From Paramarasmius palmivorus (lineage: Eukaryota > Basidiomycota > Agaricomycetes > Agaricales > Marasmiaceae): DNA of 64,000 nt. Under the pieces are notes generated by a model, which was not told the DNA's origin, did no database searches, and saw only the letters and a list, made by a program, of their open reading frames with translations. Shown piece by piece: positions 25,224 through 59,700 of the stretch. How positions within the stretch are numbered: the first letter of the stretch is position 1; each line of letters opens with the position of its first letter. The stretch is from the NCBI GenBank assembly GCA_037176845.1, contig JAYKXP010000157.1, forward strand, positions 37,719 to 101,718, given 5' to 3'. The translations under genes were made by a program, and so were the position numbers.

Positions 25224-25231
25224 GTATCTAG
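25224..25231 (+). repeat. Left target-site duplication GTATCTAG
   Basis: Exact 8 bp match to 38957-38964. The base before the insertion and the base after the right copy are contiguous in the intact arm sequence of the foldback family (GTATCTAGGTCC), so the pre-insertion site can be read directly. Confidence 0.92.
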
Positions 25232-25382
25232 CACCTATCATTCCCAGATTATGGCATGTACAGAGTCCGATCAAATAATATTATTTTACTCTGTACAGTG
25301 CCTGTTAATAAAAAAACGAGCAGATTGCTAAAGTGTAATATTTAGAAAATTAAGAATATCATATCCCTTCCCATTAGAGTCC
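25232..25382 (+). repeat. Left terminal inverted repeat of the KDZ transposon
   Basis: Starts CACCTATCATTCCCAGATTA and ends at CATTAGAGTCC. It matches the reverse complement of 38806-38956 at every position I compared. Confidence 0.93.
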
Positions 25383-25466
25383 TTTTCAAGTGTCCCTCAA
25401 TACCACGACTTGTACAGGTTGAAACATTGATATCAAGAGCATACTATACATCAAATACAATACAGT

Positions 25467-28400
25467 CTATGTGATAGTGTTAAGTACAGCCTCTGCACGC
25501 TCCATATCCTCAAGAGTGTCTTCCTCCGTATCGCTATCCACATCTTCAGAGCTCTCTTCGTTCATGTCATGGCCAACTGTATCAGAAGCGTCCTTCGTGT
25601 CATTCACCTGGCGCTTCATTCCCGTTCCAGGTGCGAACCAATGCTTGTTTGCCGGATTGAATCCTTCCAGCTCTGTGATGGCTCGGAGGCGTTTGATATG
25701 AAGAGCGTGAAAGCGGCCACGTTCCGCAAACTTGAGATGAATATGGTACGCAAATGCTGGGTCGGACTCCCCCACCTCATCAAGAACTTGCTGGCTATAG
25801 GTGAGCTCTTCTGTGATGTAGGTTATCAACCGTCGAATCTCAATGTGAAGACGTTCAAGTTCTTCTTCAGCACAAAGGACTTTGAAGTACGAAGTCATGA
25901 GCTCCCTATTGGCAGGAAGAGTCCATGCCTTCCGTTGAACATCGCTACCGGTCTCTCGGAGAAAGTCGAAGTCAGCCAGAAAGCTGCAGTTTACCACGTC
26001 ATTCCACTCCAATGTTGGCTGCGGAGGATCAAGTCCTTGTGCAGCTTTATTGAAGCGTTCGATAGCTGAACGAATTGCAGCAGAGCGTGTCTTCATGGCA
26101 CTGACTATTGCTTGGCGCATCTTGTAGCCTGTATACTAGGTATGAGCACAATCCAGGAGTCAAACAAAACTCGTACCTGTGCCTGCGACATTCAATCTGG
26201 CCATCTCGAAGATACACGCAACTACTAAACCTTCCAGCTGATTGAGGGCACGCTGGTAGTCATGATCCTTTGCCTTCTGTTGATATGACATCCATTCCGG
26301 CGAACCAAATACCCATCGAGTGATGTTGAGCTTCTGCTCCATGTTGTGTACGTTGCACAGCAGTTTGCCCTCCATCTCCATCTCGTGAAAGACCTTTGTT
26401 TCCATAGAACGTGTGGCATCACGGCCTTTGGGATCATAGGCCGTCCAGCTTTTGCGCGCTGTCGTCCGTTCTTAGCGAACTAATGAAGACTCCTGCAGCA
26501 CGTAACGTTAGTGGGCAGGTAACCTCCTGGTGACTGGATAATAGGATTCGAGAGTACCAAACTCGAAAACGTTGGCCGACGGTACTTTTGTAACTGAGTA
26601 AACTGATGATGAACTAAGCTTTGCTACACTAGCGTTTCACTCTGGAAACTACTAACTGATATATGCAGAACCAAGCTAAATAAACGAACAGCGGACTAGA
26701 CTTGACAGTGACTAGTCTAAAACTTGGGGTGAGGAATGATAGCTGTATGAAGCTAAAATGTATTTTTCCTTTCTTAGACTTGGCTATACCAATGTTTCAC
26801 TCTGGAAACTACTAACTGATATATGCAGAACCAAGCTAAATAAACAAACAGTGGACTAGACTTGACAGTAACTAGTCTAAAACTTGGGGTGAGGAACAAT
26901 AGCTGTATGAAGCTAAGATATATTTTCCTTTCTTAGACTTGGCTATACCAATGTTTCACTCTGGAAACTACTAACTGATATATGCAGAACCAAGCTAAAT
27001 AAACAAACAGTGGACTAGACTTGACAGTAACTAGTCTAAAACTTGGGGTGAGGAACAATAGCTGTATGAAGCTAAGATATATTTTCCTGGGGTGTACCTA
27101 CGATTACAGCTCCTTATATACTTTTTCAGTGTGCTAAAAATAGAACTATGGATCAGTCAGCGAACTATCTAACTGAGTCAGAAACTATAAATCGAGGGTG
27201 CAAACATGAGTTTTGGGGTACAAAGTGTTATAAATCAAGGGTCCATTCATGATTCTAGGGTTCTTTTGCTTATGAATCAGGTATTTCTCTGTGCGACTCA
27301 TGCACTTGAGTAATTCTGGATCAATCTGAATCAATCTGAGTCAGTTTGAGTCAATTTGAGTCATTCTGAGTCATTCAAAAGCTGTGGCAGCTATGAGGCT
27401 GTGTTGATCCCTAAAATAGAATAAGCATAGAATATCATAGAAAGGTAAGCATAGGGCATAAGGCATAGAAAATAGAAAGGTTGGGCATAGAGTACTTGTA
27501 TCATAATATCAAGAAAAAGCGCAAAACTTTGGGTCACTATGTAAATACCATTTTGTGGTATTACAGCGCATTCTCCAAGCGTTCACTATATGAACGAAAG
27601 GACATTAGCACATAGAGCCCATATTACAAGACCCGAACTTACCGGCAAGTCTGAAGCTCGACGAGCTTCTTGAAGTACTCCATCTTCAATAGCTCTACTT
27701 CCGGCTCTTTCTTCTTGGATAGAAGATGCTGGTGTTCCTCAGTCAGCCATTGATAGAATGTATCTGCGTTCGGGAGTCCAATCTGTCGTGCTCGCTCAAG
27801 GATGGCTGGTTTGGTCGCAATTGTATGGAGCACAGCCTTGTAGTTTCCGAGCAAGATCTTCGAGAGGTTGGCGTAGGTTTCGTAATTATCGTGGTGATAG
27901 ATGTATTCGACAATGGTTTGAAGGCGATGAAAAATGCTAGAATGGCGAGTAGCAACGGCCAGAGCGTTTGACTTGGAGAAGTAGCGCTCGCATTGCTCCA
28001 AGTTCTCCATGCCTACTCCTTTCAGATAGGTAAGGAGGAAGCTCAGCTGGCAAATTCGCTGATGAGCATGGCCATGGAGAATCCCAATGAGCATGATGAC
28101 CTCTTCTCTAAAAGCAGAGTCTCGGAGAGGTGATTTGAGAACCGTTTTCAGTAAGTTGCATGCGAGGTCGTAGCCACAACCCACGCCCTTTGGTAGTAGT
28201 GGAGGTAGACCAGAGGCTGCCCTTTTCTTGTTCAGCAGCTCTCGCTCTGCTCGTAGCCCGTCCAGAAGCTCGTGCAACAAGGCAAGCGGATACTTCCTCT
28301 GTTCCCCGCTATGCATCATGTCGGCAGCTTTGAGCATGAAGCTGTGACGACACAGCATGACGAACCACCCTTGAGCATCGAACACATTCCAGGCCTTTGC

Positions 28401-29741
28401 AATGTGTTGGTCGTTCATATTCTTCCACTTTCCTTCACATGGGCCTTCGCTATCTTTGATATTATCGCTATCAATGTCGGTACCCATCTCCTTTGCTGTG
28501 GCCTTCCAGTTTTCCGGCGCCCACTTCTGAACCTTTTCCCATGGTACAAAGTAGTCGCCTCCACCGCTCCTGTTGTCAGGCCGCTCGAGACTAGGTCCAG
28601 CATATGATTTTCCATTCGAATCGGGGCTGCGTCGCTGAACTCTTTTCATGGAGTCGTTCCCGTCAAAACACACGAGGGTGCCAATCTCCAACTCAGGCTC
28701 GTTCTCTACTGGATACTGGCAGCAAGGGCAGTTGTTCAGCATTTGCCAGCGCTCTGTGTCATGTTTTAAACGTTTCTGAACACGCTGATGGAGTTCGCGT
28801 TGGATAGCCAGATAGCAGTCATAGGCCCGAGAGAACTGGTCGGATAATGTGTCGCGATATGGAAAGCCTTGTAAATCGCACAGGCCGCGGACAAAAGGCT
28901 GAATAGCCAGTCGTGGACAGCGACAGCTAAGGTGATAATATAGCTCCAGTACGCTGATTGTGACGGCTCGAACATGTAGCAAAGGACTACATGGAATCAT
29001 GCCTTGGCGAACCAACGAGGTGGATTTGAGCATTCCTCTGTAGTATTTTGCTCCCATCCGAACTGCATCTGAGAGCTGATATGAGTAAACTGAAGCAATG
29101 TGACAAAGAAACTTACTGAATGTATCCATAACTTCCACCCATTCAGTTGTCTCAACCACGCCGTCATACTCGGCCTCATTCAGTTCCCATTTGCAATAGT
29201 TGTAGTCCAGAAACGCATCCGCCATCTCTGGTATTTGGGGTATCCAATGCTGCTGCTCAGTCTGAATTTGATTCCTTCGAGTTCTGGGATCTTGGTATCG
29301 ACTGTGAGGCAACCATTAGGACACTCAGGTTCACAGATATGAAACATAGCACTCACCACTCTTTCAGGCTGTCGTCAGCCATGTTCAGGATGTCAATGTC
29401 CTCCCAAACATCTGAGTCTTCTGTGTCCTGCTTCGTGCTTGCCTGAGCAGCCTTAGCTTCGGAAGTTGGCACAATAAAATCATAATCCATAGGCATAAAA
29501 GATGAGGTTGACGGCTCGGAGTCTTCGTGGAAATCTACAGGTGGCGTATGGTGTAGCTGCTCGTTTGGAACTGTGATTTTTGGCCTTCTGACCGTCTTTG
29601 TGTTTTGTTCGACTTCCAGTATCTCTGCAGCGGTGAAGGTTTTGGTGGATCAATTGAGGAGACGACCAGGGCCTGAGCTGGCATTGAGTAGGTCGGATCG
29701 GAAAGAGTGAGCAGGAGCTCGAAGCTTGCTTGACTGTCCAT
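25467..29741 (-). pseudogene. KDZ transposase (CxC1-like family), large intron
   Basis: N-terminus at 29741 (MDSQASFELLLTLSDP). An acidic segment ends NMADDSLKEW, which splices to RYQDPRTRRNQIQTEQQHW. The zinc-binding NNCPCCQYP precedes the RNase H-like core. Catalytic acidic positions are visible as LVCFDGNDSMKRV, GVGCGYDLACNLL and GMENLEQCERYFSKSN, the D-D-E triad of KDZ enzymes. The C-terminal coiled region is encoded at 25467-26120 and joins 26405 cleanly across an intron (VAGTG-YKMRQ). Problems: the first exon needs a frame change near 29600, and the join between 27639 and about 26450 requires a 1.2 kb intron filled with tandem repeats where the frame does not connect well. Probably the mobilising enzyme of this element, but this copy may be inactive. 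Confidence 0.88.
26615..27090 (+). repeat. Three tandem copies of a ~159 bp repeat
   Basis: GTTTCACTCTGG recurs at 26634, 26794 and 26953 (spacing 160 and 159), and the units are highly similar through AAACTTGGGGTGAGGAA. The array lies between two exons of the KDZ transposase. The sequence to about 27600 is also low-complexity, with GAGTCA-containing decamers at 27300-27375. It looks like an inserted minisatellite rather than a normal intron. Confidence 0.85.
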
Positions 29742-29774
29742 TCTTTATTGCAGTCCTATGTCTGCCGCTCATGG
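29742..29774. promoter_or_regulatory. Very short divergent gap between KDZ transposase and dioxygenase genes
   Basis: The first plausible ATGs of the two divergent genes are only 33 bp apart. If both starts are right, the 5' leaders must overlap the neighbouring gene or a shared compact promoter is used. Confidence 0.3.
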
Positions 29775-31742
29775 ATGGCAGTGGTGGATGGAGACCACGA
29801 TCAACAAAGTCATGTGATCCGTGTCAGTCATCAGGCCTCAGGTGAGGAACTGCGCGTCACTAACTTCTTCGACTGTTACTACATCCTCGATTGCATATGT
29901 ACGGTACGTGTATTCTTTCCAGTTTCTGGGGGCTCTATTCTACGGCAAGATCAGTACCTTAGCTACCCCGACTTTGGGGAGGCCTCAGGACTGAGCCACT
30001 CTCTTAGCTACTCCGACCTTGGAGAGGCTTCGAGATACTTACCTTTCACTGTTCTTGGTTTTATTTTCTGGGATACTCACATACCTACTCAGAATTGCGA
30101 CAAACAAGAAGCAATCGGGTCTTCAGTCCCTACTCTCTTGATCTAGGTCCAGCCCATGAAGTTCAGGTCATCTCCACTTTGGACACGCGCAAAATCTTAG
30201 AGGATGCTGCAGATAGAGGTGAAGAAGATGGGGATTTGGTTAGCAGGGATGCCATCGACATTTTGGGGGGCGCAGGGCTGCAACGGTCACAGTCTACACC
30301 GCATCAATCTAAACGACTCTGTCTTGACTCAGACCACCCAAGCCACGATGAAGCACACACGGTAATACCGGGAGTTATGCCTATATCGAAGCTTGCCTCT
30401 CTGTTGGATGCCACTACACTGGCGAAGAACCCCGAGCAGTTTAGGAAGGAACATACCTTCATTCTGCAGAATGTGTCGCACTCTCATTCCAATCCGACAG
30501 CTGAGTCTAACACGTCGGCTTTGATCACGAAGGCAAAACGGACGCCAGCTCAGCAGCGGCGCCAGGACAAGAAACACTTGAACTATCGCGAGAAACGAAA
30601 AGGGAAACGAGAAGCTGATCAGGAAGAGGGCGCAACCATAAAGGCCTGTGCTGCCAAGCACGTTGCTGCACTACAATCTTCCGGACTCAATATCAAGGTC
30701 CCCTTCCAGATGGATGCTAGGGAGTGGGTTGGACCCAGTGTAGCTACCCCTCAAAGAAAGCACATTGGGCTTGGGCGATATCTTGGAATTCCTGGTATGC
30801 AGAAAATTGCATGGCCTAACGTTCGGTGAGCCTGGCGATTCAAGGGTTCAAGTGCAATGAGACTCAAACCGGTTTTAGGCAGAGTCGCGTCATCCGAGGC
30901 GTAGATGGCATGCCGTATGCTTTGCTTGCAGGATGGCCTTCTGACGAGTGGCCTGTTGTCATGAAGGAAGTTCAAAGGGTGCTTCAGTGGGCACATGAGC
31001 GACTGAAGTTTGACCTAGACAATCGACGGGGAGATTATGATACCATTGGCATGGGTCTGAGCATGGGTGGAGGACAGGACAGGCCACAACGTCTGAGGAG
31101 CGGCGACGAGGGTCAGAATGGAGAGATTTTAGATGAAGTTCGGGGAAACTGGGCCGTGAAACGAGTCGCTCGTTATCATGACTGTGAGTTTCAAGCTGTA
31201 AGGCCCCGCTATGCGTCAAAACTGGTAACTGTTTTCTTAGATTGCCTCCATTGTGTCTGGAGCAAGATCCATGCGCTTTACACCCGAGTTCTACAGGCGA
31301 TATTCGAGAAAACTGGGGAGCAGCCCAACTTCAAGGATTGCTGCTTCGCTGCAGCTTACTTTAACTTTCGGAAAGCATGCTCGTTAGAGCATTATGATCA
31401 CCTTAATTTCTACTGTGGCCTCTGCGCCGTTTTCAATACAGGCGACTTTCAAAGAGCGGTCACATTGTTTTGTGGGAGTTAGGGCTTGTCATTGAGTTTC
31501 CTCCAGGATGCAGCTGCTTGTTTCCATCTGCTGCATTCAAACATTCTAATGTAGCTATTTGTGATGACGAGACCAGGTGGGCGTTTGTACAGTTTACTGC
31601 AGCTGCCCTGGTTCGTTGGGTTCATAATGGATGTCTCACTGACCTTGAGTTCATGGAGAAGGCAACTTTATTGCAGAAGAAGGAATGGCAGGCTCACCAT
31701 GATCAATTGGGCGAAGTAGGTCTCAGTTTGCTTAGGTTGTAA
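29775..31742 (+). pseudogene. TET/JBP-type 2OG-Fe(II) dioxygenase
   Basis: TET/JBP enzymes oxidise 5-methylcytosine (or thymine) in DNA using Fe(II), oxygen and 2-oxoglutarate. The N-terminus is variable, with a basic KAKRTPAQQRRQDKKHLN region at 30550. An intron with a GTGAGC donor joins NVR to QSRVIRGVDGMPYALLAGWP. Then come the fungal TET signatures: NRRGDYDTIGMGLSMGGGQ; the iron-binding H-x-D in EHYDHLNFYCGLCAVF; GHIVLWELGLVIEFPPG; distal histidine in FKHSNVAI; and the 2-oxoglutarate-binding arginine in ETRWAFVQF. A one-base frame change near 31454, between NTGDFQ and SGHIVLW, separates H-x-D from the distal His, so the copy is broken unless this is a sequencing error. The first intron joints are uncertain. 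Confidence 0.85.
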
Positions 31743-32214
31743 TCTTTGTATGTTATGTACTTGCGATTCCAATGCACTTGTGTCTTGTGTCCATTCAATG
31801 ATCATGCAATGCTCTATGAGTCTGATTTGAGTGGAATGCATAGCTTGTCTAACAATGATGATGCGTTAATTGACAATCATTGACTGAGTCTGTTATCGTG
31901 ACATTTGCTGCAAGCAACAGTGTATTCTCTGACCAATTTCTAGCTGATCTTTCAAATCACTCTCATCTTGTCGCTCTCTGTAGTCGTGATCTCAAAATCT
32001 ATCGATCCTAACAGATTGTCATGAAACGGCTATTCATCTTCCATTGATTTTAGCTACTGATCACGTAGTAATTACAAGTCCAAGAAAGCTGACATGCACT
32101 ACAGTAGCATAAGGACACATGAGGTATCGAAAGGGTACATGCATAGATTTGCAACATTGGGAAGACAAAAAAGGCGACAATCCACGAAAACACAGGTCAT
32201 CACAAAGAAGGTTT
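31743..32214. other. Intergenic region between convergent genes
   Basis: About 470 bp separating the 3' ends of the dioxygenase gene and the minus-strand gene. No ORF or repeat that I can support; presumably 3' untranslated and terminator sequence. Confidence 0.6.
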
Positions 32215-33899
32215 CTAAGCGTCTTCTTCTTCAGCCAATGTACTGACCTCTCCATTCTGCTTGAATTGACGCCACAGAGCCCAGGCTGCGGCCATGGTCC
32301 CGTTGAAGGTCCTCACTTCACTGCTACGGTAAGAGAGACCCTTAATGACAAGATTTTTCCTACTGAAGCATCAGTAAACTTGCTTGTCGAAATGAACCAA
32401 CGAAACATACTTGGAATCATAAACGCCAGGTTTGGTGCCTCTGAGAACAAGGTAGCGACAGTCCCTGGGATACTCATGTTTGAGAAGGTCAAAAATCCCG
32501 CTGTCAAGGCATTCTTGGTAGTACTTGTTGGCAAGATCGACGTCCATGAACCCTCGGCAGATACGCTGAGACTTGAAGGACTCTGGTACAACATTTGTCG
32601 CACCCTTCAAGCCTTTATGATTCACCCTAGATCGTGGTGAAGTTAGCAAGTGAAGTAAGATTGATAAATTGGAAAACGTACCAGGTTCTGAACATACCAT
32701 ACATACCGCCAATGCCACGATACACGATGTATCACCTGTGCTTAGAATGCGGGCAGAATTCCGGGAGCTCGCTAGGGTCAACATGAAGGCCACCTGGGAG
32801 AAGATGTTGAAGCGACCAATCAATTGCTTGAGTATATGGTGGAGGTAACTCCGCTGTTGCAGCTGAAGAGGTGGCTACAGCAGATGAGGTTGATGCAGCT
32901 GCATTGGAGGAAGCTCCAGATGCAGCAACAGGGGGTGCATCCTGAGCAGCTGCTGTAGAGGAACCTGATGCGGAAATGTCACTGGGCACATCTAAAACCA
33001 GCTTGCTGATATTTGCGACATTATGAGGGGCCTCTTCCAATGCAGAGCTGTTGCCGGACGAAGGTGCAAATTCCATACGGACATCGGGATCAGAGTCATG
33101 GATGGTTCGGATCAGATGTGACATATGTAGAGGTACCATGATAACGGGCTGGGTGCTATGATGCTGAGTACGCGAAGAATGGGCTGGTTCTGCAACCTCG
33201 TTCTCAGAGTCCGATGGAATTTGGAACACACCCATCGATCTGGGTACAGTGCTTCGATTTGGAGGTGACCTCAAAGGCGATACTCGAATGCTAGCGGAAG
33301 TTTGGTCTTCATCCGGCGACTTGAAAGCATCGCTTGGATATCCGTTTGGTGAATTGGGGCGAGGCTCCTCAACAATAGCACGTCGACGAACTGGCCTTGT
33401 TGACATTTCGCCATGCTCAGCCACAGGAGTGGCGCCAGGGTTTTTAACAGCAGAGTTGTTATTCCCTGCTCGAAATCTGCTAGGTGTAGATGGTACACCT
33501 TGTGTGGGAGTGACCGGTGGGTTCTGACGTACTGCGCCTTGTGTTTGTGATGTCGCTGGCGTCGCTGGTCTGAGGATGACCCTATGTTCAGCGTTTTGTT
33601 GGCTCCGGGTGGGTGAAGTCGCAGGAGACACCGTGAGTTCAAGTTGCTCTGAAATTGTGAATCGTCAGTTCGTTATCATACAAAGTTTTTTGGCTTACCC
33701 AAGAGCTGGCCGCAATTCTGATGAACCTCTCTCAGGCGTTGAATTTGCTCGCCAACTTGGACCCTGCTATCTTCGAGAGCTTCGCTCAGCTCGTTTTGCC
33801 TCGTAACGGATTGTAAAAGCTCTAGAAAAAAAAGTCGTGATAGTTATTGTCAGTCGTGACGTGGCTACTACAATCAGTGAAAGACTGACCTCGAGACAT
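32215..33899 (-). CDS. Intact five-exon gene with RNase H1 N-terminal-like C-terminus
   Basis: Exons 33899-33890, 33821-33699, 33648-32736, 32626-32411 and 32362-32215 join to 470 codons in frame (469 residues). Introns are 48-109 bases with GT-AG ends; one has CTGAT-type branch sequence. The protein begins MSRELLQSVTRQNELSEALE, a short coiled coil. A long Ser/Pro/Thr-rich, probably disordered middle follows. The folded C-terminus includes FMDVDLANKYYQECLDSGIF, YLVLRGTKPGVYDSN and GLSYRSSEVRTFNG with WALWRQF. The last part follows the Y-x-V-x-x-G-x-x-P-G-[IV]-Y...F-x-G pattern of the RNase H1 N-terminal (viroplasmin-like) nucleic-acid-binding fold; this call is tentative. Being intact while neighbours are broken suggests recent activity or selection. 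Confidence 0.75.
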
Positions 33900-34141
33900 G
33901 TTGACCACCTCCTCTTGCTCACCAAAGGCTTGTCACAGAAGATGTAGAGAGTCATGGTCCAGTCGAATAGGGCTGTTGAGTGTGTTGTTGTGGGTAGTGC
34001 TTGGTTGCATGGTGACGGTTTGGAATCAAGAAATTTGCGTGTGACTTTGGTGTGACCATTTCGCGTAGGTACACAGACACGTGCCAGCGAAAGGTCACCT
34101 TCCAGCGAGACCAGGTCTTTCTCTATAGCACCGTACTCATT

Positions 34142-37100
34142 ATGGCTGCTAATGACCATCCTCCCATCACCGGAAACGGTAACATTCAGCTTGCTGGCGG
34201 ATTTCTCCAGCCATCCCGAAGGCAACAGTATTATGCTGCCCTTTCCGACCTTTCTTCCAGACAGCAAAACCTCAATCAACAAATCCAATATGTACAGCAG
34301 CAGCAGAGTTTCAGCTCTCAGTCTGCCAATCAGGTCTCACATTCCATTTCGCCACCCTTCACTGAGGTAACTCTCAGTCAAACAAATACTCAGGAGACCG
34401 GCAGCACAAAGCTGCCTGCTGCTCTCCCTTACTTGGAGAATACAAGCCACGTCGCGTCGCCAGCGAACGCGCTCTCTACGAACTCGTTAGAGTCGGCACC
34501 ATTGGAAAGGCCCAGTATCTCCGACCAGAACCGAGCTCCTTGTCCTCAGAGCGAGCTCCCGAGTACGAGTCCAGCACAATTAGCTGCTGCCAGTCACCTG
34601 TTGCCTTCAACTCCAGTTGTGGTAGTTGCAACAGCCAAACAAAAGCATGGTCGACCAAAGGGTCACCAGATGTAGCCATACTTCAACAATAGTGCTTGAC
34701 AGTTATCAGAACGACTTTTGCAAATGTAGCGGACAACTACTTTAACAAAAGTAGAGGACAAGTAATCAAGGCAGATAAGAGGTACTGTCCGCTTTGGGTG
34801 CTTCTAAATTGGGAAGGATCATTCCCACACCTTCTGGAAAGGAAACAGGCCGCTTTTTTGAGATCTAGAGATGTTCCCACACCGCTTTTGGCATCCCAAA
34901 ATGGAAGGTGCTCTTTCCATGATGTAACAGTGCACTTTTTGGGCGCTTTTTTGCGGAAAAATTATTCCCACACCTCCTGACATCATCTGGGTGCCTCCCT
35001 ACTCCGCTTTTGGCTTCCCAAAATGGAAGGTGACCTTACCTCATCATTTTCCACCTGGAATCAATGCACTGGGGGGCTATTGGGGCATGCAGGGGGGCTA
35101 TAAAAATCGCATTTTTGAGGGAATATGTTCCAATATGTTCTAAAAGCATGCCCCTGCAATTGGGGGGCAGGGGAATGCAAAAAAAGCGGTCCAAATATGG
35201 TAATTCAGGAAAATGGCCTGTTGGATCTTGGGCTACAGGCCAGATATTGACATGGGGTAAGTTGGAGGACCTAGATACATCAAATACAAGCCTGGGGACA
35301 CTAAATAGTACATAGATTAGTGGGATAATGGTGCTTAAATATCAAAAATACTGAAAATCTCCGAAATTGGGGGAATAAAATTACAGGATGGGATGTAGTG
35401 CAGATAGGGCTCAGATATTGTGAATCAGAGATGATATATATGTCCCCTTGCTTTGTTTACAATCCTGGAGAGCTGCCTATTTTTCCAGATTTATTACAGC
35501 TAAATTCGCTTTTTTTGGACAGTGGTAATACTATACCACAGGGAATGATTGGGATGGGCTAATTCTTGTTCATAACCCACTCTAGGGTGTATAGATGATG
35601 AATATATACTTGCCCAAGCACTCCTGTATGTGCAACACCTTGTTCAATCCAATGTATTGTACAGTTATGTAACACAGGCAGTAACACATGAATAGCACCT
35701 CAGGGAAGCATCCCAGCACCAAAGGGAGTTCAGAATCGAGTTCAGGCACCCAAAATACACTTTCCTACTTTGAAAGAACATTTTTTGAATACATCTGTAT
35801 GTTGCTACATAAAAAATACATAAAAAATCGCATTTTTAGGGGTTTTTTTGTACTGGAGCATGGGGATTGCTCCTAAAATCACCAAAAATGAATGAGAGAC
35901 CGTTCACTATGCATGGAACAGGAATATCAATTGCGTCCATGAATCCCATGACAGGAATCCATATGCCAGATGCATCAATTCTTGCACAATTACAGAAAAC
36001 CTGTAATATGAATGTAGTATTGCAGGGATTGATCTGGGGACTTGGGGAACCTCAAAATCGAATTCAGGATGGAAAATCAGTCAAGAATATGTCCAGGGTT
36101 GAAAGGAATCCAATCACTGTAGGTTGAGATATGTATCTGACAAGTTTTATGCTTATAGTTAACATATATTGCACATATACTTGTGCATTTAACTTGATCT
36201 ATGCATATTGAAGTCAATTCTGGATGGATTTCCTTCAACCCTGGACATATTCTTGACTGATTTTCCATCCTGAATTCGATTTTGAGGTTCCCCAAGTCCC
36301 CAGATCAATCCCTGCAATACTACATTCATATTACAGGTTTTCTGTAATTGTGCAAGAATTGATGCATCTGGCATATGGATTCCTGTCATGGGATTCATGG
36401 ACGCAATTGATATTCCTGTTCCATGCATAGTGAACGGTCTCTCATTCATTTTTGGTGATTTTAGGAGCAATCCCCATGCTCCAGTACAGAAAAACCCCTA
36501 AAAATGCGATTTTTTATGTATTTTTCATGTAGCAACATACAGATGTGTTCAAAAAATGTCCTTTCATAGTAGGAAAGAGTCACATGAAGCTGTCCCCGGC
36601 GAGATTCGTTGGGAGGAACCAGTGGTCAACCATGTCGAACTACCACCCAATCCTAGCCAATATCTTCCTGCAAACGATGCCTCCAATTTGCTGTCCGTCA
36701 CGGTGGATGATCCCCTGGAGTACCTGTTCGACGAATCGTGTTTCGATGACCGTGCTGGAGATTTTGCAGCTATGACTGCTTGTAAAGCTGCTGGAAACAA
36801 CAGTGCTATGGTCGAGGAGATGAACACCGCATTAGAAGCTTCAGAGAGTAACGTGTCACAGTCACCATTGGTGACTGATGACATTGACACCGGTGGGAAT
36901 CCTCCAGACTTCCTTCTCTCATCGACCTTTCCTCCATCCACTACTCCGTTCAACAATCGTTCCGCCTCCAATGACAACATAGATATCGGGAATCCGACTA
37001 TTGGCGAGGCAGAAAAGAAGCTCCGAGGAAAATCCAACCAGGAGAAGCTCAATGAGATGATCCTCGCGCTTCTTCAACATGAAATTGAACAGGTCATGTT

Positions 37101-38685
37101 GATTGCAAAAGACACGGGCTATTCTATCCAACACGTCAAGAAAACGCTAGGCACTCTTCGTCCAAGAACTGAAGCAAAGAGGCCCAGTGCCTACAATGCA
37201 GCATTCGCAATCAAGGCCCAAGAAGTCAACCAAGGTTCGTGTCATTTCTGTCTCTATACTATATCTATAGGTCAAGCTGACGATTATGAATAGGCCGGTC
37301 ACCAGGTCAAAAATTGACCGCCAGTGAAATCCATGCCCTGGTTAAGGAAGATAGCGAGTTGATGAAGATGATTGAGGACCCAGTAGCTGCTCAGGACATG
37401 ATTGACGAAGCCATGGAGATCCGACACGAGAGGCTAACGCATGTGCATTCATCGTCCCAGGCAGCCTCTACCGACTGTACTCGACATGTTAACAGGTGGC
37501 AACTAGAGGTACGTGGTCGGAGATATGTTGTCTGAACGTCATAACTGACAACCGCACCAGAGCAAGAACCTGCACCATCGAACTGGTGCTTCCGTCCTTT
37601 GCGTTGTAACTAAAGGGCAGTATGGCACTACAATTCAAGGCAGTTACTCTGGCCAGGGTCCAATCGACGATTTCTTGCAGGACGTTTTTGGAGTCTCAAT
37701 CGCTTACTTCTCGTGGATGTTAGAAGGGTACTCCTGTCTGTGGAGTAAAAGTATGCTTTTGATAGGCTCTCGACAAATCTCTGCTGAATTCTTCATCATA
37801 GAGAGGGGCCACGCACTCATGACTGCCGAAATGCGCACATCTTTGGGAACGATGATCAACAAGGGCGCTAGTAAGTGAACTCTTCCATTAAAAATGAGTG
37901 TACTATCTGATGTGCTTCCCACAGGACATATCACCGGGTATAACGTTCGACGCATCCTGTTTCCCTATTATGAATCGGAGTGTGAACGGCAAAGAGTCCA
38001 CATCGCACACTGGCCCGCAGACATTCCTTTGGTCGCCCCCTCGAATCTCGATACCAAACAAGTTCAAAAACTCTATGCTTCCTGGAAGTCTGGTTGCACA
38101 CGCTGGGAGCGCATGTCATTGAGTGACTATAAGTCCCTTAAATCAAAGCTCCAGGCTCGTCGCAATGCAGGGGAAGTGGTTGATCCACCAAAACGTGCGC
38201 AGCGGAGCGATAAAGGCTCTATCCACAAGAAACGTAAACGAAATGACTCTGACACCTTCGAATACATGCAAGCAAAGAGGCAGAAACCTGCCGTTGTGGG
38301 TATGCCATCCATGGCTGTCAATCCCAAGAAGCAGGCAAAGCTTATCCAGGCTTCCTCGAACTCGAATATTGGGCGGAAGTCTGCTACCAAGCCTGGTACA
38401 AGGAAAGGAAAGCATGGGCGGCCTGCTGGGACAAACAAGGCATCAGGGAAACAGGCCAAAAAGCAGAAGGAAGCTGACAATATGGAGGACTCTGGTGATT
38501 CTGACAAAGAGATTGACCTCAATGACAGGTCCAGTTTTGATGACGACGACATGAGTGTCGATGATGATGATGACAACAACAGTGTCGATGTTGACGACGA
38601 CATGAGCGTTGACGATGATGACAACGTTGGCGAGGACTTCAGCGACGGCGACGGCGAGGAAGAAATTGATGAGCTGGAGGAGTAG
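34142..38685 (+). pseudogene. AT-hook, acidic-tail accessory gene split by foldback C
   Basis: The 5' part (34142-34676) starts MAANDHPPITGNGN, is Gln/Ser-rich and ends in an AT-hook-like KHGRPKGHQM. After foldback C the gene resumes with EAVPGEIRWEEPVVNHVE, a helical segment KKLRGKSNQEKLNEMIL, then exons joined at about 37234/37293, 37508/37560, 37744/37800 and 37870/37925. Conserved-looking blocks are CVVTKGQYGTTIQGSYSGQG, RGHALMTAEMRTSLGTMI and GHITGYNVRRILFPYYESEC. The C-terminus has a second AT-hook-like KHGRPAGTNK and a long Asp/Glu/Ser tail. I do not know its function. AT-hooks suggest DNA binding, perhaps to the element's AT-rich ends. The downstream four-fifths is open apart from introns; the insertion is the main lesion. 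Confidence 0.7.
34697..36576. mobile_element. Foldback repeat copy C
   Basis: Complete left arm starting TGACAGTTATCAGAACGAC, the ~115 bp spacer, then only the first ~350 bp of the right arm, which stops at AGTAGGAAAG (36576). About 1.07 kb of right arm is missing, so no second terminus or target duplication can be read. It is closely similar to foldback B and lies inside the AT-hook gene of the KDZ transposon. Confidence 0.85.
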
Positions 38686-38805
38686 TTATCTTGAACGGTG
38701 TCTTTCTTGGTACTACCTCTAGTCATTTGCATTATTTAGCTCTAGAATCAACAAAAACCTTTATAATTATGGTGCTAAATTGATACTGCATGAGATAGCT
38801 TGGTG

Positions 38806-38956
38806 GGACTCTAATGGGAAGGGATATGATATTCTTAATTTTCTAAATATTACACTTTAGCAATCTGCTCGTTTTTTTATTAACAGGCACTGTACAGAGT
38901 AAAATAATATTATTTGATCGGACTCTGTACATGCCATAATCTGGGAATGATAGGTG
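38806..38956 (-). repeat. Right terminal inverted repeat of the KDZ transposon
   Basis: Reverse complement of 25232-25382, ending ...TGGGAATGATAGGTG directly before the target duplication. Confidence 0.93.
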
Positions 38957-38964
38957 GTATCTAG
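38957..38964 (+). repeat. Right target-site duplication GTATCTAG
   Basis: Exact copy of 25224-25231. It is followed by GTCC, which continues the interrupted foldback arm. Confidence 0.92.
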
Positions 38965-39545
38965 GTCCTACAACTTACCCCATGTCAATATCTGGCCTGT
39001 AGCCCAAGATCCAACAGGCCATTTTCCTGAATTACCATATTTGGACCGCTTTTTTTGCATTCCCCTGCCCCCCAATTGCAGGAGCATGCTTTTTGAACAT
39101 ATTGGAACATATTCCCTCAAAAATGCGATTTTTATAGCCCCCCAGCATGCCCCAATAGCCCCCCAATCCATTGATTCCAGGTGGAAAATAATGAGGTAAG
39201 GCCACCTTCCATTTTGGGAAGCCAAAAGCGGAGTAGGGAGGCACCCAGATGATGTCAGGAGGTGTGGGAATAATTTTTCCGCAAAAAAGCGCCCAAAAAG
39301 CGCACTGTTACATCATGGAAAGAGCACCTTCCATTTTGGGATGCCAAAAGCGGTGTGGGAACATCTCTAGATCTCAAAAAAGCGGCCTGTTCCCTTTCCA
39401 GAAGGTGTGGGAATGATCCTTCCCTATTTGGAAGCACCCAAAGCGGACAGTACCTCTTATCTGTCTTGATTACTTGTCTCCGACTTTTGCAAAAGCCCTT
39501 GTCACAGATTATTGCAAAAGTCATTCTGATAACTATCGCATGTTT
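38965..39545. mobile_element. Foldback element B, right end
   Basis: The remaining outer 581 bp of the right arm of foldback B, in reverse complement to 22859-23440. Added to the inner part before the KDZ insertion, the right arm is about 1.42 kb, equal to the left arm. It ends ...CTGATAACTATCGCATG. Confidence 0.85.
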
Positions 39546-39571
39546 TTGTAAAAGTATCGGTACATCTGGTG

Positions 39572-42202: not shown

Positions 42203-45200
42203 ATGTCAAAACGTGGTCACAATCATTTGTCTGAATACACAAGCAACGACTTTTCCTCTGACTCGGACGCTGATGATGAGCAACCACCGACAGCCAAACG
42301 CAGCAAGGGCAGCAGCTCATTCTCCTTGTCCCTATCTGCCGACAAGCGTCGTATCATTACCAAACCTCTCTCTCTGTAACACATTCATGCCGTGAGTCTC
42401 AGGCAATTACCGAAGGTGTGGCTACCTTGATGGTCCACGACGAAGACGGTGCAATCACGAGCGCAGAGTCTGCAGATAGTAGCAAGCATAGTTGTCAAGG
42501 AGATGGCTCTGACCGTGAGGGGGTTGGTGGTAGCGCAGAGGATTGGGTTGGTGGTAACAGAGAGGATTGGGTTGGTCTTGCCGCTCCTATGGGCCCAACA
42601 ATGCTTTCAGATGCTGCACGTAAGGTATGTTGTTGCTTCTACTGACCAGAGCTTATGACTGATATCATACCAAAGGAGCAATATCTGAAAGAGTGGCTGG
42701 GCCTCAGAGATGACTATCTGAAGGTTTTATTAATTGGGGAAGGAAGGGGTGAGAGCCCCCCCAATATTTGCGGTTCCTGCAATAAAAAAGGCAGCGATCC
42801 CAAATTTCGGTGCCGGGATTGCTTCTCTGTCAAGCTCTTTTGCAAAGAATGCATCTTGGAGTGCCATCGAGACAGCCCATTAGACATCATTGAGGTAAGA
42901 AGGTTGACTTTCCTTTACACCATCTAATTCCTGCTTTCAGATGTGGAACGGCCAGTTCTTTGAGCGGATTATGCTCGCTGATTTAGGCTTAGTGATACAG
43001 CTAGGACACCTCTCCAATGTCCCTTGTCCAGCACCAAACACATCTACCCCCAAGAACTTCACTGTCATTCACACGAACGGCTTTCATCGTGTGCACATCC
43101 ATTACTGCCAGTGCCCAAAGGGCGGGAGAATGCCACATATGCGTGAGCAGTTACTGGCTCACTGGTGGTATCCAGCAACAACGAAAGTTCCTTAAACATG
43201 CTTTACCTTTCGCCTTCTGGAGCATTTTCACATCATGACCCTTGTTGGGAAAATCAGTACCTACGACTATTATCGGGGTCTAGAAAAGCTGACAAACAAC
43301 GCTGGGAACCTCGCATTCAAGGTATATCTCGATGTTCTTTTTGCAACCTTATGTTCTAATTGATTCCTTAGAAACAGTATGATTCCTTTTGTCGTGCAGT
43401 AAGGGAATGGCAACATCTCAAATCCCTGAAGAGAGGAGGCCGAGGCAACGATGCCTCTAGACCAGTTGATCAAACCACAGACGGAGAGCTTGCTGTGCTA
43501 TGTCCTGCATGTCCTCATCCTGGAGTTAACCTCCCTTCTAATTGGCAGTCTGTAAATCTGAAGAAGAGGTACGATTTCTATACTTCATATTGATGAAATG
43601 GCTGATGAAAGCGACAGGTTCATATATAATCTCTTCCTTGCTGTAGATGCCTGTTTTCGTCTCAAACAGAAGCTGGTGTCAAGCAAAGCTACAGACCCAG
43701 GCCTGGGGACAGGGTGGTCATACATGGTTCCTGACGAGCCGTATTGACAGTATCTTCTTGCAACAACCAATGAGTCTGAGGTGTGGAAATTACTGTTCAA
43801 TATTTATTTCTTACTTACCGAGAACTAGATGTCTACTTGTTCTGGATTGGCAGTGCTGGATCATGCCAACTCAAGGAACTCTCGAGGTCATTACGCAACA
43901 TCTGGCGTGGCGTTGGGTTGTTGTGCTCGACATGGATTCATCCAACCCAACAGTGTAGGCGACCTTCAGAAATGCGAGCGGTGAGTTGAGCCATTCGAAT
44001 AATCTATCGATGCTGATTGATGACAGCTACTGCAATGTTGACTGGGTCATTGCATGTGTTTTAGGCCACCATGATCACGGCTTACAGATGTGCTTGTCAT
44101 ACAACATCTGTTGTCAGTATTGTAAGCCGTTTATTGAACGACTTCTCGCATTGCCACCGGAAAAGCAACCAAGGATAATTCCCGAGTTCATGTTCGTTAT
44201 CCCAAAGCTACACCTCTATGGTCACACCCCTCATTGTCAAGTGAATTTTTCCTTGAATTACTGCCCGGGTGTTGGACAGACAGATGGTGAAGGGGTTGAA
44301 AGAAACTGGTCTGGTCAAGGCCCAATCGCAACCAGCACAACTGAGATGGGTCCTGGTGCTAGGCATGATATGTTGGATGATCACTGGGGGTTTTGGAACT
44401 GGCAAAAGCTAGTAGGCCTAGGTACGTTCTATTTCCCCACTAATACATGCATTGCTAACAGGCCAACCAGGTGTTTTATTATTCAATCGCCTCCAACTTG
44501 CCATTGAATGGCGAGATAAGAACGAGGAATTGCACCAAGCATACTCGCTCAACCAAACTTCTCATATTGATGAGTGGAAGAAGATGGTGGAAGAGTTTGA
44601 CAAGGATCGTATGAAGCCAAATCCCTATGAGCTTCCAGAATCAGGTTTGTCTCTCCACCACAAGTAATTGGCAAGTATCACTTACATGTTTGTCAGATAT
44701 TACGCTACAGCAGGTTAGACGTGAGCTAGCTGAAGAGGAACTCCAAGCTTTCCCGAGTACTCTGGCTCCTAAAAAGGCTGCAGAATTACTCTCCAAAGGC
44801 CCATCATCCTTCATCATTCTCGCTCTTGAGGTTGAGGAACAACAGTAAGTGTTCAAGTTCTCAAGATATTCCATTGAATATTGACGTGTGTAGACGTCAG
44901 CTCCAACAAGATGTTGCCTTGAAAAGCAAAGGGTCGCGGATGAAGCAGACTAGCGAGATTGTCGACAAATGTTTGCGTCTTCACAAGTTGTTGGCGCGTT
45001 TCAAACTTCAACAATCGCACTTCATGCCTATCATGGTACTACAGTCAACAAACATGCTGGTCCAGTTGAAGTTGAAGACCTTCCACTCTACCTTCCCTCA
45101 TCCCTAACACAGCAACAACTCTTGGCCTGTTCTTCATCCAATTTAGCTGACATCGAGCTTTGTCTTAGGAATGCTCAATGCTCTGAGAGTCTGGACAACA

Positions 45201-54349: not shown

Positions 54350-55911
54350 AACATATTCGAACAGATAAACCCAGCAAGAGAATGCAAGAGGGACAACAGA
54401 GGAAAGAGCAGTTGGTAGAGACAAGGTATGAGTATGTTACTGTCTCGGACCATGACACTGATACTATGAATAGGCTGGAGCATTGACAGAAGGAGCTGGA
54501 TAATGCACAGTCCCTTGGAAGACGTCAAAGAGAAAAAAGCCCTTCAGCACCAGAAGATACCAGTCAGACTATCAACCTAGTTTCCCCAACTCAGCCAGTC
54601 CATGCACCCATAGGCATCCTTTCTGAGGGTTGTGGAGAAGGTGCGCATATGGGATGTGGTAGCTGACAACAACCGACAACACAATTTACAGGATGTGGAA
54701 ATGGCGCTGGGACGCTCGATACTGGTGAATCATGAAGTACTGGAAGATTGGGAATGGATATGGAAGCCAGGATACCATTACGCTTTCAATGAGAAAAAGC
54801 AGTGTATACTTGGTGTATAAATAACGTGAGTGCATAACCGATAGCCTTGACCAACTTTTTTGACTTACATGTTGACAGACCTTAGGCTTTTATTAGTGAG
54901 CAGAAGCAGGAAGCCATGAAGACAGTGATGGAATGGTCAACATGTGTAAACCCAATCAACATTAATGCGGTGAGCCCTTTCCAATGTCAAGTTCTTGGAT
55001 GTTGCATTAATATAGTCATTCTTCTAGCACGAAGCATGCTGCTGATGATGATAATGTCTCACCAGGGGCAAAGTCTGGCAAGATGTTTGGCATGGGCTGG
55101 CATGCTTCTATGCAGAGGAATACATCTGTAGTGACATATGCCTCAAGACGTGGCTGGGAAATTCGGTAGGCCCATTGTTATCAACAGAATAGATCTCCAA
55201 ACAAATGACCTTCAGACAGAGAAACCTTCTTGAGAGTCCCCGAATTCCTCAAGTGTACACGGAGTACATGATGTCGATGGCCAGTCTTGTCCCTGGATAT
55301 TTTGAACACCAGGTTCTCATCTCGAATAAGTAAGTACTGTGAATGCTTAATGAGAATTCATACTGATACCTCTAAAAGTTATCAAGTCCGATCGTTTCAA
55401 AATAAGACCTGGGATGGTTAGCTGAACTACGACTACAGGCCAAATGTCCTCAATATCACTCGAGACGGGTTTTCCAACTTTACTCATTGAGATCATGACT
55501 TCTGTGAGATAGCATTCAGGTGGTGGTGGACATCAACTAAGCATGACCGGAATCATACCTATGAGGTCAACACCGATGGTATTGATCATGCTAATGTTCA
55601 GGATGGACAGTTTATCTGGGCTGAGTATGGTATCAGTGTTGATTTTCAATGGTAAGTCTCTGTCTATCTTGTTAATGAGGCTCATAAGAAACATCTTCAG
55701 GGCATCTGGCATGGTAGAGGTTTTCTGGAGGGGACAGCTTGATTATCATGCGACCATTGCCAGTGTTGAACCATCAAACACAACACGATGGGATACTTCA
55801 ATCCAGCTTACACATGCTTTTGTGAACTGGGTAGAGTTGGTTTCTGAGACCAGCAACCCTGAATCACGTATCCAGGGACCTTCTCATTACTTTGCTCAGC
55901 GTAATTTTTAA
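54350..55911 (+). pseudogene. Tet-like 2OG-Fe(II) oxygenase, decayed
   Basis: The first part is coiled-coil-like (RKEQLVETRYEYVTVSDHD). The conserved region follows: VRIWDVVADNNRQHNLQDV, WKPGYHYAFNEKKQCILGV, a KSGKMFGMGWHASMQRNTS block, then NITRDGFSNFTH, stop, DHDFCEIAF. In Tet-like oxygenases of this fungal type the iron ligands form H-x-D; here the x codon is TGA (55488-55490), one C-to-T change from CGA. Next come YGISVDFQWASGMVEVFWRG, YHATIAS (likely distal His) and TTRWDTSIQLTHAFVNWVEL, the position of the 2-oxoglutarate-binding residue. Several other stops and frame changes. It lies 1 kb upstream of a CxC2 KDZ gene in the same orientation, again pairing a KDZ transposase with a Tet-like enzyme. 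Confidence 0.6.
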
Positions 55912-56720: not shown

Positions 56721-59700
56721 TGAGGAAGGCAGGGAAGGTCTTCACTAATTGTCTATCTGGAAAATATCAGTACACATTGTGTGGGGCATTTGTGATCACA
56801 TACCGGTGGGTTGTGGCAGGTGGAAAAAAGTCTGTGTCACAAATTGTGACAACCGTGACATGTGAGTCCTTGCTCACCATTCTCCTGCAACCATCAAATG
56901 AAACAAAGTGCATCCAGCAAACAAAGCAACCGGGATTTCCAGCAAAGACGCGTTGATGACAATGACTATGAAGTGTATCATGCAGGTGAAGCCCAGTTCT
57001 CATCTTCTGGGCGACTCTTGGACAAGAAATGATCTCCAATGAAGGGAAGGACAACATGGACAGTTGGGAGTACTTGGAAGCCTGAAGATGATAAAGAGTT
57101 TGGGTTGAATATAGATAGGTCTTACTATGATCAGGAGCTGCTGTGAGAACCATGTGATCCTCCAGTGATTATTGATCAGCTAGTTGAGGAGAGCACCCAG
57201 CTGAAGAAACGGAGTTGTCAGTTGGTGAGTCATATAAGATGTTCAAGTTCAAGTAGACAATTGACTGATGTCTTCTGTAGAGAAGACCTCACATTGTTTG
57301 GCTTGAACAATATCGGCAACCCTTTCTCGATGAGCTGCTTTGCTGGGATGGCCATACAGATTTCATTACCCAGAAGCACTGCTTGGATTGTGTTGCATAA
57401 CATGGACAAAATACGTCAACATGTGCGATCAATGAGGGTTGATATCAGTGTAAGGATTGCTTTGTGGGGGATCTGGTGTGTGCAGAATGCTGCCAGAAAC
57501 GTCATCATCAGCATCTGTTTCATTGCTTGGAGGTGTGTGTTAATGCTTTTCTCTGGTGACAAGGGATATTGATCATATGTCTCAGGAATGGAAGAATGGT
57601 CACTTTACTGATAGCTGCCTCAAGGATGTTGGTATGGTGATTCAGTTGAATCATTGTAGTGGTCAATGTCCAGCCCCACAACTCACTCATCGCCAGTTAT
57701 GCATTCTGCATACAAATGGTATCCATGATGTCAACCTGCAGTATTGTGACTGTGAAGCCAAAGTCCCACAATACCTCCAACTATATCCGGCAACACAGGA
57801 TGATATCTGAACATGTGCTACATTCACTCTCCTGGAGCAGCTACATTCACTATCACTCATCAGAAAAGGGGGAACATATGACTACTATCAAACACTGGAG
57901 AAGTTGACAAATAACACGGGAGTGGAGGTGCCAACTTTGAGATATCGTCAGCTCCAGCGTATGCTGTTACAATGGCGTCACTTGAAGATGTTGAAGCAAG
58001 GTAGAAGGGGGCAGCTGGATGATGGAGTACAGCAAACAAAGGAGGGTGAACTGGCAGTACTCTGCCCAATGTGCCCATGGCCAGGTATCAACCTCGATGA
58101 TGGCTGGCAGCTGGACAAGAACAAAAGGTAGGTTATACATTCTTGACCAGTTGCAATGGCTGAATGACCTTGTCAGCTATCTCTATGCTCCAATTGTCTG
58201 CCTTCAACTTCTGGCTTAAAGCACAGCTGGTGTCGTCCTGATCCATGTGCCGACGATGGGTGGTCTTTGTACCCCGAGCACCATACAAAGACTATATAAA
58301 GCAGCATATGTCAGCAGCAGATGTAGGTGCCATCATAACTTCCCTTTTGATGATCACTAATGAATGTTTCAGGTGAGTACATGTGTAGGCTTCTAAGCTC
58401 TTGCCCAACAGAATATGTGTGCATCACAAGGGCTCAGGTATACTGGACTGGATGCAGTGGTTTGTGGCAGAAGTGAGATGGTGCTACCAAATGGAGTTGG
58501 AAATCTAGAGAAGGGGGAACGGTATGTGGAGATCAATCATTCAATAGGAAGCGTAAACTAATATCATCTCAGGTATGCAAATTCCAGGTTCATATTTGGA
58601 TGTGCTATCAAAGCCATGATAGTACTCAGTATCAGGAAGATCTATGTTGCATATGATGTGGTATGCCAGTGGTTCATCAATCTCATGACATGCATGAAGG
58701 ATGACTGGCCCCACAATCTATGAGCATCTCACCTAAAGATCACACCCCTCATTCCCAAATTCCACTTTCCAGCTCACTGTGAAGCTGACCATGACCAGTT
58801 CAATTGCAACCTAGCCAAGGGATGTGGGAGAGCCGACTGTGAATGCTGTGAGTGTCTCTGGGCTGTAATGAATGCAGCAGCACCTTCAACAAAGACGATG
58901 GGGCCAGGATCTCACCAGGTGGTACTGAATGATCATTTTGGATTTCACAACTATGTACTTTCATTGTATTCAGAGCTGTGGCACTGACATCCATGTAGGT
59001 GTCTACCTGATGAAGAAGTATCGTGAAGCTATTGAGGACTGTAACAGGCAAGTGGAAGGACATCGAGGGCTTACACGCTTCCTACCACCTGGTCTCGAAC
59101 AGAAATGGGCAAAGATGTGTGAGATATGGAAGGAAGGTGAGTTCTGTAAGAAGGGTCCAAATCCATTTGAACAAAAGGATACAGGTATGGTATACATATG
59201 TCATACTATATTATGGGACTAACCCCTATTTAGACCTATCACGTGCGGAAGTTGAGAAAGAGCTGGCAGAGTATGAGGCTGATCAGCAAAAGAAAGGTGC
59301 CAAGGTCTACCATACAACAACTGCCTCCATTTTTATCTCCCTTGGTATTGACCTCGAGGAAGCACAGTACAAGATCAAGGCATTGTCCAAGCATGAAGAG
59401 GACAAAGAACATCTCACTCTCACACAGTTGAAGACACTTGCAGAGCAGTGTAATATCCTGCGATCAAAGCTGGTTGGTTGGGCAAAGTTACATGCAATTT
59501 ACATGCCAGGATTACTACAGTGGCTGACCCAGATGAACGAAGATGATTCACTGGTTGACATAGAGCCAGAGGACTTTTGACTCTGGCTTCCATCATCATT
59601 ACCGGTGGCACGTCGGCATGACATTTGCGTGGATGGCCTAGTCAATATCGAGGACAAGCTTCACACTGCACAGTGTAAGGATGCACTAGATGGGATTTGG

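Follow-up and report, generated by a model that had tools for sequence, protein, structure and literature searches.

A KDZ-type transposon that carries a gene for a TET-like dioxygenase occupies positions 25232-38956 of the 64,000-nt stretch of Paramarasmius palmivorus contig JAYKXP010000157.1 analysed here (the window). The element is genuine and exactly bounded, with the limits of its 13,725 bp fixed to the single base, and this copy is complete in its ends and not in its genes. We consider it rather probable that it is a cut-and-paste element built on a three-gene core, to which a TET/JBP-like gene of the kind belonging to another KDZ clade was added.

The element is flanked by an 8-bp target site duplication (TSD), GTATCTAG, read from the forward strand at 25224-25231 and 38957-38964, and ends in terminal inverted repeats (TIRs) of 151 bp. 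The left TIR (25232-25382, forward strand) starts with CACCTATCATTCCCAG, an end motif common to elements on contigs C32, C21 and C84 of the same genome, and contains a palindrome-like stretch (25257-25297) with TGTACA on either side. The right TIR (38806-38956, reverse strand) is identical to it at 151 of 151 positions, so that the ends, the repeats and the duplication are as the original prediction for this stretch had read them. The octamer GTATCTAG has seven occurrences in the window, where 1.5 would be expected. That its duplication at the ends is not a coincidence follows from a paralogous empty site: a repeat copy nested inside the element (35035-35502) is 97% identical to both element flanks and reads through the target with a single GTATCTAG (35271-35278, reverse strand). 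The transposase matches PF18758 at E 2.2e-60 (204.5 bits, cut-off 26.6) over profile positions 3-217 of 217 and is stop-free there, which confirms the KDZ transposase that had been predicted. The element therefore belongs with the KDZ transposons both by its transposase domain and by its TIRs, 8-bp TSD and empty site. The TIR had been proposed as a route to further copies; the 151-bp query returned only the element's own two ends from the 68.3-Mb genome, in a search that skips very common words.

By a wide margin, the nearest relative of the transposase lies on C32 (51-55% identity over the main part, 41% in the C-terminal block), the next relatives reaching 30-42%. It is part of a complete sister element of 9,722 bp (C32:82107-91828) flanked by a perfect 8-bp TSD, GCTAAAGA, and bounded by TIRs of about 405 bp with 98% identity. 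The sister matches the window element in the order and relative orientation of its transposase, gene 3 (35% identity) and gene 4 (28-31%), and a search with 26 dioxygenase queries detected no dioxygenase in it. A single query reached E 0.006, with a match that lies upstream of gene 3 and does not involve the catalytic core, and further queries gave 0.03-1; we read these weak matches as chance. We also weighed a basic open reading frame (C32:87144-87485) as the possible remnant of a dioxygenase and rejected it. Both elements have ends composed of CACCT, 11 bases, ATWATGGCWTGTACA and then the palindrome-like stretch with TGTACA. The end motif recurs at one mismatch in two short elements, C21:539276-540210 (935 bp, TSD CCATATGA) and C84:77667-79148 (1,482 bp, TSD TGTGGACT), which are likely non-autonomous relatives; their TIRs measure 131 bp and at least 200 bp, respectively. 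Perfect 8-bp TSDs were found in all four elements for which both ends are known (window, C32, C21 and C84), and a fifth place, on C33, showed one end only. At three mismatches the motif gave 15 more places, which were not counted because a backward control gave 14 in all.

We take the transposase, the RNase H1-N-like gene (gene 3) and the HMG/AT-hook-like gene (gene 4) to be the older core of this element lineage. Gene 4 was found at one other place in the genome only, on C32. Gene 3 has 13 other genome matches (12 were aligned; L086 was left out, giving no match on re-search) and is thus not a marker of the window and C32 lineage alone. Of these 13, the ones on C177 and C32 have a listed KDZ match about 3 kb away, and none is listed within 10 kb of the other 11.

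The dioxygenase gene points to a different kinship from that of the transposase. Its family occupies 97 places in the genome (from 101 rows, after merging four rows of the window and two of C186). Among these, 65, the window included, lie no more than 10 kb from one of 150 listed KDZ matches out of 178 reported. About 4% would be expected at uniform density, a figure that is too low because repeats cluster; the remaining 32 places have no listed KDZ match within 10 kb. Relative to the transposase, the dioxygenase of these 65 places stands 5' on the opposite strand in 36, 5' on the same strand in 18, 3' on the opposite strand in six and 3' on the same strand in five. Together with the three-gene sister on C32, which has no detectable dioxygenase, this variety contradicts the fixed four-gene layout proposed originally.

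Trees were built from 26 of the 97 dioxygenase places (L058, a near copy of L057, was omitted) and from 32 KDZ domains, all of this one genome. The window dioxygenase groups with those on C9, C63 and C186 (support 98/95; best identity 54%). Of the other dioxygenase loci compared, only these three match its N-terminal part, which lies outside the tree alignment. The window transposase, by contrast, groups with that of C32 (100/100), and the C9, C63 and C186 transposases fall in a different clade (97/97). Forcing the transposases of the window, C9, C63 and C186 together was rejected by the approximately unbiased (AU) test (p 1e-27), as it was with C32 added (p 9.6e-5). Equally, forcing the window dioxygenase into the group of L051, L052, L063 and L065 was rejected (p 5.9e-5); the L051 dioxygenase adjoins a nearer transposase relative, on C3. 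This conflict makes it probable that the dioxygenase gene was exchanged between KDZ lineages and, as the sequences suggest, not recently. Among the three kin on C9, C63 and C186, the dioxygenase core has 91-96% protein identity and a ratio of nonsynonymous to synonymous substitution rates (dN/dS) of 0.02-0.04, and the transposase a ratio of 0.03-0.09. Because synonymous divergence has reached saturation in most pairs, these ratios are informative in direction only; they suggest that the kin dioxygenase has been kept about as strictly as the kin transposase. In the C9 stretch examined, no TIR was found.

The dioxygenase gene itself (30008-31742, forward strand; introns at about 30826-30878 and 31184-31240) was aligned with 25 of its relatives, an X being placed at a frame slip in the window copy. 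HxDxxN, GH, PxG, HSN and a later Arg are invariant in all 26 sequences, which thus have the Fe(II)/2-oxoglutarate (2OG) residues HxD...H...R expected of TET/JBP. The spacing resembles that of CcTet from Coprinopsis cinerea (PMC11040006), where, in the passages used here, the Arg follows the first His of HxD by 59 residues (62 in the window protein) and an aromatic residue stands six positions after the Arg, as it does here. The pocket differs. Counted from the first iron-binding His, all 26 have Asn at H+5 and Cys at H+11, the positions of CcTet Gly331 and Asp337, and the window protein has Ala at the position of Arg393, all by distance only. The same passages give Asn1387 as the residue of human TET2 at the first of these positions, that of Gly331. 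Two transposon-borne TET types serve for comparison: in PMC12730594 the AG type encoded by Kyakuja elements carries Gly or Ser at the first pocket position and Asp at the second, as opposed to Asn and Cys by distance in 26 of 26 here, and the PE type replaces HxD by HxE, whereas HxD is present in every aligned member. At E ≤ 0.1, Pfam's Tet_JBP matched nine of the 26 (best 9e-5) and the general 2OG-FeII_Oxy_3 family ten. Searches of the PDB with sequence and profile found no relative, NCBIfam gave no match to the three kin dioxygenases, and the alignment gave nine pattern matches in viral and 23 in prokaryote contigs, none of them a relative. PF20515 was tried as a candidate family and rejected; it has four places in the genome, and the window dioxygenase gene is not among them. 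The predicted DNA-demethylase-type enzyme is thus present as a dioxygenase that appears TET/JBP-like by its motifs, with Pfam below cut-off, which falls short of proof of membership.

The four genes alternate in orientation (transposase reverse, dioxygenase forward, gene 3 reverse, gene 4 forward). The supported part of the transposase spans 25467-29315, in homology blocks at 27642-29315 (PF18758), 26163-26471 and 25470-26135; the boundary of its N-terminus upstream of 29315 is uncertain. A gap of 1.17 kb (26472-27641), which includes three 159-bp tandem repeats (26604-27081), separates the blocks and may represent an expanded intron or an insertion. The dioxygenase slips frame near 31450, inside the catalytic fold, being 7 nt shorter between matching codons than each of its three kin; the slip is read from the assembly alone and may be an assembly error. 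Gene 3 (32215-33899, reverse strand) gives an open model of 469 amino acids in five exons with a C-terminal RNase H1-N-like domain (motif YLVLRGTKPGVY). The gene is therefore present as predicted, and its label is a tentative one: PF01693 did not match the window copy and matched two of three relatives below cut-off (E 0.14-0.2 and 0.036-0.086), and PDB searches by sequence and profile found no relevant relative.

Gene 4 (34142-38685, forward strand) is split by nested repeats of about 1.9 kb (approximately 34664-36580), formed by a copy of the repeat that flanks the element (34664-35502) and a long palindrome (35757-36580). The palindrome, on the insertion's 3' side, has 396-nt arms, 93% complementary, around a 32-nt spacer. 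The 5' part of the gene (34142-34675) has near its 3' end the sequence KHGRPKG, which we take to be an AT-hook-like motif, and the interruption follows it directly. The 3' part (36578-38685) has an open frame with three GT-AG introns, an acidic tail, a second AT-hook-like motif and a segment that is presumably HMG-like; Pfam scans of gene 4 matched no HMG family. GRP motifs are visible in the translation, and the predicted AT-hook protein gene is borne out. The claim of a complete transposon is right for the ends and wrong for the genes, given the frame slip, the split gene 4 and the transposase gap. It is probable that the window copy is a defective passenger.

Several points weigh against the addition of a borrowed dioxygenase gene to a three-gene core. 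That core is known from two elements only, and C32 may be TET-less through loss. The trees draw on a single genome, with 26 of the 97 dioxygenase places in one and 32 KDZ domains in the other, and the groups for the AU tests were picked after the trees had been seen. The window dioxygenase sits on a long branch (0.86), and for the KDZ tree there was a warning that long branches meet, those of C186 and four others with that of L015. Genome-wide, Tet_JBP (PF12851) has two matches (C207, 23.9 bits against a cut-off of 34.9), and none of the 97 dioxygenase places is among them. It is somewhat unlikely, yet well worth weighing, that the trio lineage had the dioxygenase from the start and C32 lost it, in which case the grouping with C9, C63 and C186 would reflect old duplicates or long-branch effects. 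The scarcity of trio elements, the long branch and the many family copies, among which duplicates may hide, all favour such a history; the three AU rejections and the N-terminal part, which gives the same kinship, speak against it. Unlikely as well, and a little more so, is a dioxygenase that is no DNA demethylase and acts as a 2OG oxygenase on RNA or protein, kept for another reason. The weak Tet_JBP scores, the matches of ten members to the general oxygenase family and the empty PDB searches fit that idea, whereas the CcTet-like spacing of HxD, distal His and Arg, an Asn that corresponds by distance to TET2 Asn1387 and an association with KDZ elements like that published for TET genes argue for a TET enzyme.

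The original prediction saw an intact element of four genes able to modify its own methylation state, and TIR identity over 151 bp suggests recent movement, with gene 3 and the transposase domain open. We nevertheless regard this as very unlikely for the window copy, in view of the frame slip, the nested insertion in gene 4 and the TET-less sister. Self-protection is thus weakened here by the slip in the catalytic fold and the split AT-hook gene, and stays plausible for the kin, whose dioxygenases have low dN/dS. A chance neighbourhood of unrelated genes and repeats has practically no probability left: the surroundings are repeat-rich, but they do not account for identical TIRs, an exact 8-bp TSD and an empty site, nor for a sister with three genes in matching order and its own TSD.

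Iyer 2014 reportedly described fungal KDZ elements that carry TET genes, with associated proteins that include a divergent HMG protein. The original prediction had called such genes known, rightly: TET-carrying fungal KDZ transposons (Kyakuja, Zisupton and Dileera) are described by Kojima 2025 in the passages of PMC12730594 drawn on here. The window element resembles them in combining a transposase and a dioxygenase gene and in its CA..TG termini, and resembles Zisupton in its 8-bp TSD. It is not a Kyakuja as the same passages describe that element for Laccaria, with a 7-bp TSD and no TIRs, in contrast to 8 bp and 151-bp TIRs here. The term RNase H1-N-like does not occur in the covered part of that paper, nor was such a partner mentioned with KDZ in the literature searched. 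KDZ1-KDZ3 of Cryptococcus neoformans likewise have a KDZ transposase and, according to the passages used of PMC12810828, measure about 9-11 kb with TIRs of 139-241 bp and TSDs of 8 bp (KDZ1) or 4-8 bp (KDZ2 and KDZ3). The domains named for them are KDZ and CxC1, whereas the C32 transposase has a CxC3-like cluster just below cut-off and the window transposase none; those passages describe no dioxygenase there. Since fungal KDZ elements with TET genes have been published, as have long TIRs and duplications of 8 bp, the element's kind is known. New are the matched TET-less sister within one genome, the conflict between transposase and dioxygenase trees, the pocket with Asn and Cys, and the occurrence of gene 3 as a companion gene of both trio elements. 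Equally new is that, judged from sequence, the dioxygenase gene looks borrowed from another KDZ lineage and the window copy looks damaged.

The insertion target is itself a many-copy repeat: at least 41 genome matches to the right flank were found, two of them inside the window, with 40 of 263 candidates scored. This flanking repeat (38965-39571 and 34664-35270) occurs in many copies as inverted pairs of about 3 kb end to end, as a many-copy element with inverted ends of about 600 bp. Further KDZ matches in the window lie at 44022-44399 and 58367-58951, the latter with internal stops, and a match to PF20515, another dioxygenase family, at 55323-55661 has three internal stops and is one of four such places genome-wide. 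The observed/expected CpG ratio is 0.68 for the window element (0.73 without the nested repeats), 0.36 and 0.50 for the flanks (1-25223 and 38965-64000, respectively), 0.89 for the TET-less C32 element and 0.79-1.06 for six other KDZ stretches; next to the window element, its flanks are strongly depleted in CpG. As a trace of methylation the ratio was dropped, since it fails to separate elements with and without a dioxygenase.

On the reading that we prefer, a KDZ lineage with three genes and long inverted repeats bearing the CACCT...TGTACA end motif would have received, between transposase and gene 3, a TET/JBP-like gene of the kind that accompanies another KDZ clade of this genome. The transposase would recognise the TIR, including the subterminal palindrome with TGTACA, and cut there, and the products of genes 3 and 4 may bind DNA or nucleic-acid hybrids. 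An intact dioxygenase would oxidise 5-methylcytosine in methylated element DNA and so oppose silencing, as is argued for fungal TET-carrying elements in the part of PMC12730594 used here. The window copy itself is most likely unable to carry out this oxidation, and it would be mobile only if a transposase, its own or one supplied in trans, acts on the intact ends. More tentatively, and with distinctly less confidence, the dioxygenase may be a further transposon-borne TET type, which has a TET2-like Asn and fits neither the AG nor the PE type in their published description, and which passes between KDZ lineages as a detachable anti-silencing cassette. Both states would then be seen in the trio lineage, absence in C32 and presence in the window element, and gene 3 would encode a partner that binds nucleic-acid hybrids.

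If these readings are right, the dioxygenase gene is a module exchanged between lineages within KDZ. In the passages drawn on, PMC12730594 reports TET exchange between superfamilies in rusts, with the PE type also in Agaricus bisporus, and none for the AG type. There, too, Kojima 2025 calls the role of TET in the escape from silencing not experimentally validated. The genome of P. palmivorus would hold matched KDZ elements with and without a dioxygenase that have an end motif and partner genes in common, and would thus offer a natural comparison for whether a transposon-borne TET aids escape from silencing.

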